Part shown: piece by piece, positions 40,449 to 46,145 of the stretch
Layout: the number at the start of each line of letters is the position of its first letter
How positions within the stretch are numbered: position 1 is the first letter of the stretch
Assembly (NCBI RefSeq): GCF_036634195.1
Contig: NZ_JAZIFY010000001.1
Span: 5,900,501-5,964,500, forward strand
Length of the DNA stretch: 64,000 bases
From: Streptomyces sp. P9-A4
GTDB lineage: Bacteria > Actinomycetota > Actinomycetes > Streptomycetales > Streptomycetaceae
Direction of reading: 5' to 3'
Notes under the pieces: generated by a model
The model's input: only the letters and a program-made list of their open reading frames with translations
Database searches by the model: none
Told to the model about the DNA's origin: nothing
Program-made: the position numbers and the translations under genes

Positions 40449-41936
40449 ATGAACGCGGACACCACGGGATCCCATGTCGTCGTCGCCGGAGGCGGAATCG
40501 CCGGCCTCGCCGCCGCCCACCGGCTGGCCGTCGCCGGCCACAAGGTGACCCTCCTCGAAGCGGGGGACCGGCTCGGCGGCAAGCTGCTCGCCGGGGAGAT
40601 CGCGGGCGCGCCCGTCGACCTCGGCGCGGAGTCGCTGCTCGCCCGCCGCCCCGAGGCCGTGGAGCTCGCCAGGACCGTCGGCCTCGGCGACCGCCTCCAG
40701 CCCCCCGCCACCACCACCGCGTCCGTCTGGTCCCGGGGTGCGCTCGTCCCCATGCCCAAGGGCCACGTCATGGGCGTCCCCGGCGACGCCCGCGCCGTCG
40801 AGGGCCTGCTCTCCGAGGAGGGCCTGCGCCGCATCGGGGAGGACCGCGAGCTGCCGCCGACCGAGATCGGCGAGGACATCGCCATCGGCGCGTACGTCGC
40901 CGCCCGCATGGGCCACGAGGTCGTCGACCGGCTCGTGGAACCCCTCCTCGGCGGGGTGTACGCCGGTGACGCCTACCGCATCTCGATGCGCGCCGCCGTC
41001 CCCGCCCTCTTCGAGGCCGCCCGCTCCCACCCCACGCTCACCGCCGCCGTCCGCGCCGTGCAGCAGGCCGGCGCGACCGTCCCGACCGACGCGGCGGGCG
41101 CCGCCACCGGCCTCGGCGGCTCCGTCTTCCTCGGCATCGACGGCGGCGTCGGCACCCTGCCCGGCGCCGTCGCGGACGCGATCCGGGCGGCCGGCGGCGA
41201 GATCCTCACCAACGCCCCCGTGACCGCGCTGCGCCGCACCCCGGACGGTGGCTGGCAGGTCGTCAGCGGCGACCGCGTCCTCACCGCCGACGGCGTCGTC
41301 CTCGCCACCCCCGCCGGGCCCGCCGCCGCGCTGCTCGCCGAGCACGCGCCCGCCGCCTCCGCCGAACTCGACGCCGTCGCGTACGCCTCCATGGCCCTGG
41401 TCACCCTGGCCTTCCGCCGCTCCGACATGCCGGACCTGCCGGGCTCGGGGTTCCTCGTTCCACCCGTCGACGGCCACACGATCAAGGCCTCCACCTTCTC
41501 CTCGCGGAAGTGGCGGTGGGTCACCGACGGCGCCCCCGACCTGTTCGTGCTCCGCACCTCCGTGGGCCGCCACGGCGAGGAGGCGCAGGTCCACCGCGAG
41601 GACGCCGACCTGGTCGCCGCCTCCCTCAAGGACCTGGCCGCCGCCACCGGGCTCGCCGCCCGGCCCGTCGCCACCACGGTCACCCGCTGGCTCGACGGCC
41701 TGCCGCAGTACCCGGTCGGCCACCTCGCCCGGGTCGCCCGGGTCCGCGAGGCGGTCGCCGCGCTGCCCGGACTGCGGGTCGCGGGAGCCGCGTACGACGG
41801 CGTCGGGATCCCCGCCTGCGTCGCCTCGGCCCACCGCGCCGCCGACGAGATCCTCCGGGAGTTCGGGGCGAAGGCCGGGGACGAGATCATCGCCACGTCG
41901 AAAAGGACCGACCCCGGTGCGGGGCACTCCCTGTGA
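40449..41936 (+). CDS. hemY: Coproporphyrinogen III / protoporphyrinogen oxidase
   Basis: A 495-residue FAD enzyme of the HemY/CgoX family. The dinucleotide motif [18 protein letters not shown] is followed by [12 protein letters not shown] and [17 protein letters not shown]. The C-terminus has the closing FAD motif [28 protein letters not shown]. In actinobacteria this enzyme oxidises coproporphyrinogen III to coproporphyrin III in the coproporphyrin-dependent heme route (known). It lies 17 bp before hemQ on the same strand, so the two act in sequence. Confidence 0.92.
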
Positions 41937-41953
41937 CGGGCGAGAATAGGCGT

Positions 41954-42667
41954 ATGAGTGCGCCCGAAAAGATCCCGAACGCCGGTAAGAAGGCGAAGGA
42001 CCTCAACGAGGTCATCCGCTACACCCTGTGGTCCGTCTTCAAGCTGCGCGACGTTCTCCCCGAGGACCGCGGCGGTTACGCCGACGAGGTCCAGGAGCTG
42101 TTCGACCAGCTCGCGGCCAAGGACATCACCATCCGTGGCACGTACGACCTCTCCGGTCTGCGCGCCGACGCCGATGTCATGATCTGGTGGCACGCCGAGA
42201 CGAGCGACGAGCTCCAGGAGGCGTACAACCTCTTCCGCCGTACCAAGCTGGGCCGCGCCCTGGAGCCGGTCTGGTCGAACATGGCGCTGCACCGCCCCGC
42301 CGAGTTCAACAAGTCGCACATCCCGGCCTTCCTGGCCGACGAGAACGCGCGCGACTACGTCTCGGTCTACCCCTTCGTGCGCTCCTACGACTGGTACCTG
42401 CTGCCGGACGAGGACCGCCGCCGGATGCTCGCCGACCACGGCAAGATGGCCCGTGGCTACCCGGACGTCCGCGCCAACACGGTCGCCTCCTTCTCGCTCG
42501 GCGACTACGAGTGGATCCTCGCCTTCGAGGCCGACGAGCTGCACCGCATCGTCGACCTCATGCGCCACCTGCGCGCCTCCGAGGCCCGGATGCACGTCCG
42601 CGAAGAGGTCCCGTTCTACACCGGCCGCCGCAAGAGCGTCGCCGAACTGGTGGCGGCCCTGGCCTGA
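41954..42667 (+). CDS. hemQ: Coproheme decarboxylase HemQ (chlorite dismutase family)
   Basis: A 237-residue protein of the chlorite dismutase fold. It makes heme b by decarboxylating coproheme, the last step of the Gram-positive route. Seen: [12 protein letters not shown] and [25 protein letters not shown] in the N-terminal half, and [51 protein letters not shown] (the His of DHGKM is at the heme-ligand position) in the C-terminal half. The Arg needed for true chlorite dismutase activity is not apparent. ATG 41954 lies 17 bp after hemY. Confidence 0.93.
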
Positions 42668-42822: not shown

Positions 42823-43584
42823 TCATTTCCGGGACCTTCTCCCTGACTCCCCGCCCAGCAGGGCGGCCCGCAGCTCCGGTTCGAGGACGGCGGGTCCGCG
42901 CGTCGCGAGGGCCGTCAGCGGATCGGCGGGCGAGAGGCCCGCGAGCAGCCGCTGACCGGCGGGGGAGGCCCAGCGGGTGTGCGGGTACACCTCGGTCAGG
43001 CCGATCAGCAGACAGAGCCCCGAACCGGCCAGCGGCAGTGCGAACCCGGCGAGCACCGGGCCCCGTTCGCCGGCCGGTACGAGCAGCGCCGACGCCGTCC
43101 CCAGCGCCAGGCTCAGCAGGAAACCGGCCCGCACCGCCCGCAGCGCGGCGGCGACCTCCCGGCGGCCCGCCTCGGACACGGCGAGCCCCCGGTCGACGAG
43201 CCCGTCCGCGAGGGAGCGTACGGCGTCGGCGGCGGCCACCACCGGACGCACGGCGGGGATCGATGACTGCCCGGCGGGCCCGATGGCCCCGAACACGGCC
43301 CGCTCCAGCGCGTCCCCCTCGCCCCCGTGGCCGGTGGCGTCCACGACCGTCGCCCAGCCGGTGTGGGCGAGCAGCAGCCGCCGCTTCCGGTGCAGTGACA
43401 CCAGGGTCAGATCGGTGACCCGCAGTGGCCCGCCCGCGAGGTAGGCCGCCTCACCGACGGTGAGTTCACCGGAACCGCCGGAAGCCTCGTGGGGACGGGC
43501 GACGGCGAGCGAGGCACGGCAGATCCGTGTACAGCCGACACCGGCCACCACGAACGCCACCAGGAGGAGCGGAACCCAGATCAT
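42823..43584 (-). CDS. TIGR04222-type membrane protein without Cys tail
   Basis: A 253-residue protein. An N-terminal hydrophobic helix (MIWVPLLLVAFVVAGVG) precedes a soluble region with the family pattern: ELTVGEAAYLAGGPLRVTDLTLVSLHRKRRLLLAHTG, a run of short helices, then two further hydrophobic helices (~145-200). The end is basic (GGESGRRSRK). It resembles the core of the neighbouring 43648-44700 protein but lacks its Ser/Gly/Cys tail. It is the third gene of the MNIO operon, 63 bp after the tailed gene. GTG 43587 is an alternative start. Function unknown. Confidence 0.75.
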   Translation of the reverse strand: MIWVPLLLVAFVVAGVGCTRICRASLAVARPHEASGGSGELTVGEAAYLAGGPLRVTDLTLVSLHRKRRLLLAHTGWATVVDATGHGGEGDALERAVFGAIGPAGQSSIPAVRPVVAAADAVRSLADGLVDRGLAVSEAGRREVAAALRAVRAGFLLSLALGTASALLVPAGERGPVLAGFALPLAGSGLCLLIGLTEVYPHTRWASPAGQRLLAGLSPADPLTALATRGPAVLEPELRAALLGGESGRRSRK

Positions 43585-43647
43585 CACCCGGTTCTATCGG
43601 GAGGACGGGCCGCCCCGCCACTCGAACAGCCGCTCCGCAGGCACCGC

Positions 43648-44700
43648 TCAGCTGCTGCTGGAGCTGGAACACGAACTGGAGCTGGAACACGAACTGGAGC
43701 TGGAACTCGAACACGAGCTGGAACTCCCGCAGCTCGAACCGCCCCCGGAACCGCCGCAGCTCGAACCGCCGCCCGAGCAGGAGCCGGAGGAACAGGACCC
43801 GGCCGAGCAGGACGAGCCGCCGCCCGAGCAGGAGCTTCCGCCGCCGCCTCCGCAGGAGCTGTTGGTCGCGCACCACTCCGTCGCCACCCCGAGGAGGGCC
43901 GCGTCGGAGGAGGAGAATTGGCTCGGCGAACGCCGCCCGCCGCGCCGGTTCCTGCGCGGCGGCGCGTAGAACCGGGCGGCGGCGACGAGCTGCTCCCGGA
44001 GCACCGGGTCCGGCAGGGCCCGCAGCCCGTACAGGGCCACGAGATGGCCGATGTCCCCGAGATGACCGTGCGCCCGCCCGTAGGCGCGGACCGCGCGGCG
44101 GCCGGCCGGGGTGACCTGCTTCCCGGCGATCGACCCGCAGACGGCGCCGGTGATCACGGCGGCGAACAGCACCGGCGCCACCTTGAAGACGAACGGCAGC
44201 CGGAACTCCGGGTCGGCGGCGAAGTCGACCACCGTGAGGAAGACCGAGAGCGGCAGGAGCGCGAAGGCCGCCAGGGCGAGGATGCCGCACCAGCGGGCGG
44301 TGGTCCGCCGCGTCGCCGGGTCCACCACCAGCCCGCGCGCCGCGAGACCGCTGCCGATCTCCTGGACCGCCGGGTGCCGCATCACCCCCAGCCGCAGGTG
44401 GTGCAGGGCCCCGTGCGGGGCGGCGGCGTGCTCCTGGAGGACGGCCCGCTCCACCGGGTCGTGCGCGGTGGGACGGACGATCGCGACGATGCCGGGGCCG
44501 CCGACCGCGAGTCTGCCGTCCGCCTGGAGGGCGGCGAGGGCGGTGTCGACGACCCTGGCCGGGCCGCCGTTGAGGAAGGCGACCTCGTACCGGTCGTGGA
44601 CCGGCCCGCCGGGACCGCCGCGGGTGCGGACGACCCGGGTGATGACGAGGGCGATGCCGGCGGCCGCCGCGAGGTGGATGAGCACGATCAGAAGGTTCAT
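43648..44700 (-). CDS. TIGR04222-type membrane protein with Ser/Gly/Cys-rich tail
   Basis: A 350-residue protein. An N-terminal helix (MNLLIVLIHLAAAAGIALVITRV), a soluble segment (YEVAFLNGGPARVVDTALAALQADGRL) and two further helices (~143-200) form the family core. The last 71 residues (~280-350) contain almost only Ser, Gly and Cys, with ten cysteines spaced 4-10 residues apart. ATG 44700 is chosen because GGAG lies 6 bases upstream. The gene begins 2 bp after the MNIO stop. MNIO enzymes modify cysteines, so this tail is a plausible substrate, presented from the membrane. A role as structural or metal-binding tail is also possible. Confidence 0.75.
   Translation of the reverse strand: MNLLIVLIHLAAAAGIALVITRVVRTRGGPGGPVHDRYEVAFLNGGPARVVDTALAALQADGRLAVGGPGIVAIVRPTAHDPVERAVLQEHAAAPHGALHHLRLGVMRHPAVQEIGSGLAARGLVVDPATRRTTARWCGILALAAFALLPLSVFLTVVDFAADPEFRLPFVFKVAPVLFAAVITGAVCGSIAGKQVTPAGRRAVRAYGRAHGHLGDIGHLVALYGLRALPDPVLREQLVAAARFYAPPRRNRRGGRRSPSQFSSSDAALLGVATEWCATNSSCGGGGGSSCSGGGSSCSAGSCSSGSCSGGGSSCGGSGGGSSCGSSSSCSSSSSSSCSSSSSCSSSSSS
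43651..43863 (-). repeat. Low-complexity repeats encoding the Ser/Gly/Cys tail
   Basis: The coding DNA repeats a short unit; on the plus strand it reads GGAGCTGGAACACGAACT several times between 43669 and 43728. Because Ser and Cys codons (TCC/AGC, TGC/TGT) are near-identical, slippage could easily change tail length and cysteine number. Confidence 0.75.
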
Positions 44701-44702
44701 GG

Positions 44703-46145
44703 TCATCTCCGTACGAGGGCGTGACGGGCGGCCCGTACGAGCCGGGTCGCGCGGCCGGGCGGGCGGCTGCCGGAACGGTCCTGCCACCACTCCGTGAGCT
44801 GCCGCCGCGCCGCCGGGTCCTCCGGGCGGTCGGCGAGCAGCAGGTGCTCGGCGAAGTCGAGCGCGTCACGGCGGTAGCCGCCGGACATGGGGCGGCTCCT
44901 GGCGTACGCGAGGAACGCGGGCCGGAAGCCCTTGCCGAGGATCTCCGGCAGCTCCGGCGCGACCTTCGCGACGACCCCGGCCCGCTTGGCGGCGAGGGCC
45001 CGGCTCTGGACCCCGAGCCGCCGGGTGTCGAAGCCCTCGGGCGCGGGGGTGCCGGCGACGAGCGCGGAGAGGAGGGCGGCCTGGGCCACGGCTGCGCGCT
45101 GACGTGCGGCGGTTCGCTGCGCGGGCTGCGGTACGTCCTCCGCGGCGGGGGTGGCGTTCGGCATCGGGCCGCCTGAGGCGCGGGCGCCCGCGCCGATGAG
45201 AAGCGGGGCGTCGACGGTTCCCAGGGGTGCGGGCAGCGGGGAACGTGTCCCGTGTGCGTGGGCTGTGCCCACCTTCTCCCGGACTTCGTCCGGGGGGACC
45301 CCCATCGCCCCGGCGGAACGCATGCCCACGCCAGTTGTGGTCCTGATCGCCTCCAGCTCTCCCGCCAGCTCCTCCGCCGGAGGGAAGTCGTCGTCCCGTT
45401 CCAGAAGGATCCCCGGCGGCGTGATGCGGCCGGCCAGGTCCGCCAGTACGTCGAGTACCGCCTCCGGTACCGGGTGTGCGTGGGTGTCGTGCCAGACGCC
45501 GTCCCGTTCCACGCCGCCCGCCACGTGCACGTACGCGATGGCCTCCACCGGAAGTTCGGCGAGCGCCCGTGCCGGGTCCTCGCCCCGGTTGACGTGGTTG
45601 GTGTGCAGATTGGCGACGTCGATGAGGAGCCGTACCCCCGTACGCTCCACCAGCTCCGCCAGGAACTGCCCCTCCGTCATCTCCTCGCCCGGCCAGGCGA
45701 TGAGGGCCGCGATGTTCTCCAGAGCGAGCGGCACGGGCAGCGCGTCCTGCGCGATGCGCACGTTCTCGCAGAGCACGTCGAGCGCGTCCCGGGTCCGGGG
45801 CACCGGCAGCAGGTGGCCGGCTTCGAGCTGCGGGGTCGCGGTGAGCGGGCCCCCGGCCCGTACGAACGCGATGTGCTCCGTGACCAGCGGCGCCCCCAGC
45901 GCCACCGCCTTCTCGCCGAGCGCCGCCAGGCGCGCCGGGTCGGGGCGGTCGGCGCCGCCGAGCCCGAGCGAGACCCCGTGCGGGACGACCGTGACGCCGC
46001 GCTGCCGCAGCCGGGTCAGTGAGTCGGGCAGATGGCCGGCGCAGATGTTCTCCGCGACGACCTCCACCCAGTCGACGCCGGACAGCCCCTCCACCGCTTC
46101 CGCGATCTCGGGACGCCAGCCGATGCCGATGCCGAGTGCCGTCAT
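44703..46145 (-). CDS. MNIO (DUF692) metalloenzyme fused to a partner-like C-terminal domain
   Basis: A 480-residue protein. Residues ~1-265 form a DUF692 TIM barrel with candidate metal ligands His56 (PHGVSL), Glu90/His91 (TEHIAF), Glu143 (LENIA), Asp176 and His181 (IDVANLHTN), His207 (YVHVAG), Asp220/His222 (DTHAHPVP) and Glu249 (LERDDDFP). These enzymes (for example MbnB, TglH, ChrH) use iron centres to oxidise peptide cysteines. After a linker (~270-345), residues ~346-455 resemble DUF2063/HvfC-type partner domains ([43 protein letters not shown]). Partner proteins normally bind the substrate peptide. ATG 46145 follows GGAGGGGG. The next gene encodes a Cys-rich tail. Confidence 0.82.

Follow-up and report, generated by a model that had tools for sequence, protein, structure and literature searches.

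Pairs of an MNIO enzyme and a TIGR04222 membrane protein have been described before. Of over 1,000 Cys proteins that lack a signal and are encoded before MNIO genes, 40% belong to TIGR04222 (Antoine et al. 2025, PMC12452194), and the sections of that paper on the family describe Ser/Gly/Cys tails, place them in the periplasm by prediction and propose subsets of these proteins as MNIO substrates. The locus reported here shares both families, the C-terminal Ser/Gly/Cys tail and the candidate substrate role with those pairs, some of whose clusters also include type 2 partner proteins, a further likeness. It belongs to this published kind of system, and what an earlier note on this DNA had put forward as a candidate new system is a pairing already in print. 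It differs from the pairs as those sections present them in that the tail is predicted to be cytoplasmic, a partner-like domain lies inside the enzyme and a Streptomyces MNIO clade is mostly tail-less; it is these three features, the predicted side of the tail, the one-frame fusion and the clade without the tail, that merit testing. At the 11 places that concern fusion in PMC12452194, no fusion of an MNIO with its partner is found.

Bufferins and captophorins, copper peptides with 5-thiooxazoles (sections of PMC12452194 and PMC12668002), likewise combine an MNIO and a DUF2063-type partner with Cys-rich substrates. Their precursors, however, are mostly small and carry Sec signals, and their partners are DUF2063-RRE proteins, whereas the candidate substrate here spans the membrane several times and no RRE was seen. 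In oxazolin and fontiphorin, Cys residues are converted to copper-binding 5-thiooxazoles, according to the relevant parts of PMC12668002 and PMC13419390. In the TglHI system (3-thiaglutamate; parts of PMC10880893), TglI, which has an RRE, is a protein of its own, unlike the partner-like domain described here, and the enzyme acts on a Cys that is added at the C-terminus. The substrate sections of PMC12452194 report that MNIOs act also on Asp, Asn or Phe, beyond the cysteines named in the earlier note. A TIGR04222 peptide is mentioned in a bacteriocin cluster in part of PMC5183585. Among the literature matches listed, from a search whose coverage excludes most subscription journals, there was no experimental study of an MNIO/TIGR04222 pair.

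The locus and its enzyme

The window, that is the whole stretch of 64,000 nucleotides that was analysed, comes from Streptomyces sp. P9-A4, a soil bacterium. Three genes lie in a row on its minus strand, as had been read from the letters alone, and their family matches are all above the cut-offs. They encode a 480-residue MNIO (DUF692; 44703–46145), a 350-residue TIGR04222 protein with three membrane segments and a Cys tail, which is the likely substrate (43648–44700; 155.4 bits with NCBIfam TIGR04222, cut-off 43), and a second TIGR04222 protein of about 253 residues without a Cys tail (42823–43587; 112.6 bits, same cut-off), whose gene was called at 42823–43584 and may have its own start at the GTG at 43587. 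Only 2 bases separate the MNIO stop codon from the ATG of the tailed gene. Genome-wide there is one MNIO match and there are three TIGR04222 matches, the third of which lies about 200 kb away and has no Cys tail. A hemG-like (PF01593) and a hemQ-like (PF06778) gene, on the plus strand at 40449–42667 of the window, converge on the MNIO operon.

The barrel domain of the enzyme (approximately residues 5–269) matches PF05114 with an E value of 8.3e-78 and 261.7 bits, against a curated cut-off of 25. Nine presumed iron-ligand positions (H56, H91, E143, D176, N179, H207, D220, H222 and E249), seven of them set through an alignment with TglH and two through 3bww, are identical in all 61 loci; the TglH iron-ligand positions, as given in PMC10880893 where it treats TglH, are kept. 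Against NF050167, the NCBIfam equivalog for bufferin maturases, the protein scores 180.4 bits, below the cut-off of 310.

The last ~140 residues (341–480; 44703–45125, minus strand) form a helical domain, assigned to PF26136 by precomputed annotation, that resembles the DUF2063/TglI-like MNIO partner domain and, more narrowly, the N-terminal helices of the TglHI chain taken as TglI (parts of PMC10880893). Moderate evidence suggests that it is a partner domain; the Z of the helical-fold match is low for a helix bundle, and a Foldseek search gave nothing below E 0.001. The partner-like domain shares one frame with the MNIO at this locus; 7 of 60 relatives encode it in a separate frame. No second, recognition-type domain is seen in the structure model of residues 275–480. 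At locus L119, one MNIO with its partner domain in another frame is adjoined by two Cys-tailed TIGR04222 genes.

The cysteine tail and its co-occurrence with the enzyme

Residues 280–350 of the tailed protein (71 amino acids) comprise 40 Ser, 19 Gly and 10 Cys. Cys 277, in a WC motif just before this stretch, brings the total to 11, and from it the tail runs to residue 350 (43651–43872, minus strand). The ten tail cysteines of the earlier note are present, but they are repeated rather than regularly spaced, at gaps of 5–9 residues. The DNA under the tail end holds an 18-base tandem repeat of 3.7 copies, and despite this repeat the tail Cys and Ser codons are mixed. The sequence contexts of the cysteines are SSCG and GGCG, unlike the EGKCG motif. 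Among the top 120 of 995 relatives in the database, at least five Cys follow residue 240 in 117, and a Trp precedes the first Cys after that residue in 119.

Across two hundred Streptomyces genomes, an MNIO of some kind was matched in 189 and TIGR04222 in 178; 173 genomes have both, 16 only the MNIO, 5 only TIGR04222 and 6 neither. TIGR04222 is present in 173 of the 189 genomes with an MNIO versus 5 of the 11 without (p 0.0003, uncorrected for kinship). The pairing of DUF692 with TIGR04222, whose absence from other genomes had been named beforehand as grounds for giving up the idea, is thus recurrent. A tail with at least four Cys occurs in none of the five MNIO-less genomes that have TIGR04222; in one of the five, a draft in which the MNIO was not found (G336), locus L156 has three tail Cys.

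Sixty MNIO regions were picked by hand, approximately every second listed MNIO row, in a sample that omits the top-scoring rows (another MNIO type, 358–371 bits) and some rows near contig ends. Home-made HMMs seeded from the window served for the counts. A protein with at least four tail Cys (range 4 to 11) lies at the MNIO in 35 of them, downstream in 34, a count that takes in two odd cases, L139 and L105 (a partial TIGR04222 frame upstream of the MNIO). No tailed gene was found at the MNIO in 23, and the remaining two (L115 and L116) end at contig ends. Because it recurs both in the database relatives and at 35 of the 60 sampled MNIO loci, the Cys tail is not a product of chance. In 16 of the 35 tailed loci the region also encodes a second TIGR04222 protein with fewer Cys. 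Tailed and tail-less regions look like the same locus, since hemQ placement on the opposite strand is common to both (42 of 57 regions: 22 of 35 tailed, 20 of 22 tail-less). The MNIO strand also carries a DUF4142 gene in 12 of the 22 tail-less regions and in 11 of the 35 tailed ones, and at L107 (G389) this gene lies between the MNIO and the tail-less TIGR04222 gene. Outside Streptomyces, the fetched stretch includes an MNIO at 9 of 13 Cys-tailed loci; at the other four (3–4 Cys each) there is none up to 1.5 kb past the matched domain.

Predicted side of the tail

In the AlphaFold model of the tailed protein (mean pLDDT 74.9), long helices at residues 2–27, 128–162 and 170–192 hold the hydrophobic segments, a folded domain lies between the first two helices and the tail is disordered. 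Set beside the small size and cleavable N-terminal Sec signal of a bufferin-type precursor, this protein has 350 residues and a first segment that reads as an N-out anchor. Across 121 database proteins, the average number of Lys plus Arg in 15 residues is 2.6 to 3.2 at three places, following segment 1, ahead of segment 2 and following segment 3, versus 0.4 in the acidic loop between segments 2 and 3. Charge favours an outer N-terminus and an inner tail in 121 of 121, 34 of 34 (2 of 36 skipped) and 38 of 38 proteins, in a count that weighs about 45 inside against about 10–15 outside residues; the contrast is weaker in the tail-less set, whose 38 rows include L115, a tailed protein truncated where its contig stops. 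From these charge patterns the tail of the Streptomyces proteins is predicted to be cytoplasmic, contrary to the published periplasmic prediction.

In the count of a fourth membrane segment, which leaves out L197 (no tail Cys), all 119 tailed relatives lack one (hydropathy peaks at 1.13), and 4 of 13 Cys-tailed members outside Streptomyces carry such a hydrophobic stretch ahead of the tail (mean hydropathy at least 1.5). In these four (L006, L011, L012 and L193) the tail that follows it is a short Gly/Cys one, which may therefore lie on the other side of the membrane; as far as hydropathy can tell, the side of the tail may differ between branches.

Candidate substrates and product of the enzyme

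All 23 sampled regions without a tailed gene keep an MNIO with all nine ligand positions, and most have a tail-less TIGR04222 gene. A search of their 23 whole genomes for TIGR04222 listed 38 matches, of which 30 were made into loci and 29 scored (L189 was left out; 9 were unread), and none of the 29 has more than three tail Cys. In a quick MNIO tree with long branches, 22 of the 23 tail-less rows fall in a 24-row clade (SH-aLRT 98) together with two tailed members; the remaining one, G388, which has an MNIO but no TIGR04222 match, is placed among tailed rows. Probably the tail was lost in one clade that retained the enzyme, if the direction is read correctly. This clade is the strongest result against the tail as the sole substrate: because the MNIO and its ligands persist in 23 of 60 regions where no Cys-rich tail was found, the enzyme probably has a role besides the tail, and it probably does something else in the tail-less relatives. 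The earlier reading of the tail as MNIO substrate is therefore upheld as regards the pairing, which is real and recurrent, and weakened by these 23 regions.

The tail-less protein of the window has a CxxxC motif that ends its first membrane segment. At MNIO loci, 32 of 38 TIGR04222 proteins without a tail share it, 14 of them from tailed loci and 18 from tail-less ones (the window protein is counted and L115, cut by a contig end, is not), versus 1 of 4 from MNIO-less genomes, where three near-identical proteins lack the second Cys.

Our preferred reading, to which we give an even chance, is that the fused MNIO oxidises cytoplasmic tail cysteines of the membrane-anchored TIGR04222 protein, probably to metal-binding groups. 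A cytosolic enzyme with a built-in partner domain would act on the disordered C-terminal tail of a three-pass protein whose N-terminus would be outside and whose folded domain and tail would be cytoplasmic, and it would reach the tail while this is tethered to the membrane. The product would probably be thiooxazole-like, Cys-derived groups able to bind copper, or a different soft metal, on the inner side of the membrane. By analogy with oxazolin and fontiphorin, the enzyme would most likely make a metal-binding surface, but SSCG and GGCG are not EGKCG, and a different chemistry is conceivable. The computation itself shows the genes, the single-frame fusion, the conserved ligand positions, and the tail with its link to the enzyme; the partner role of the extra domain, the topology, the action on the tail, the chemistry and the metal role are inferences. 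Counting against the preferred reading are the 23 of 60 tail-less regions, the low-Z helical match, the published periplasmic tails, the missing recognition domain and the 4 of 13 Cys-tailed loci outside Streptomyces with no MNIO in the fetched stretch. A bolder version, in which a self-contained MNIO-partner fusion would turn the cytosol-facing tail into a row of metal-binding heterocycles, the membrane protein's own winged-helix-like domain would replace the missing recognition domain and a large clade would have switched target, is speculative and somewhat unlikely.

The tail might also be modified in the cytosol and end up periplasmic or extracytoplasmic, as published for TIGR04222, much like a tethered bufferin. 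The TIGR04222 sections of PMC12452194 and the fourth segment of the four members outside Streptomyces point this way, but the Streptomyces proteins have three segments, with positive charge flanking them on the side of the tail, and we consider this outcome unlikely. Equally unlikely, in our view, is a conserved substrate outside the Cys tail, for example an unlinked peptide or the CxxxC of the TIGR04222 protein that lacks a tail, with the tail as an extra substrate. The 23 regions that keep the MNIO, mostly beside a tail-less TIGR04222 gene, and the frequency of CxxxC at MNIO loci argue for such a substrate; however, the near identity at this end of three of the four MNIO-less proteins reduces the CxxxC contrast to few events, the motif lies within a membrane segment and is absent in 6 of 38, and G388 has the enzyme with no TIGR04222 match at all. 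That the tail stays unmodified and binds metal or forms disulphides, with the MNIO neighbourhood reflecting mere co-regulation, is very improbable: TIGR04222 proteins with 1–3 Cys near the end do occur away from an MNIO, and four Cys-tailed loci outside Streptomyces have none in the fetched stretch, but among the Streptomyces loci fetched, tails with at least four Cys are found beside the enzyme.

Should the fused enzyme modify the tail in place, the reach of MNIO chemistry would grow beyond small exported peptides and take in anchored, cytosol-facing proteins, in a genus where 189 of 200 sampled genomes have an MNIO of some kind. The natural one-chain enzyme is a convenient test system, and the tail-less clade offers a route to another MNIO substrate. 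Three further TIGR04222-like proteins (L184, L186 and L187), encoded away from the MNIO, have at their C-terminus a run of glycines interrupted by one Cys (GYGCGGG).
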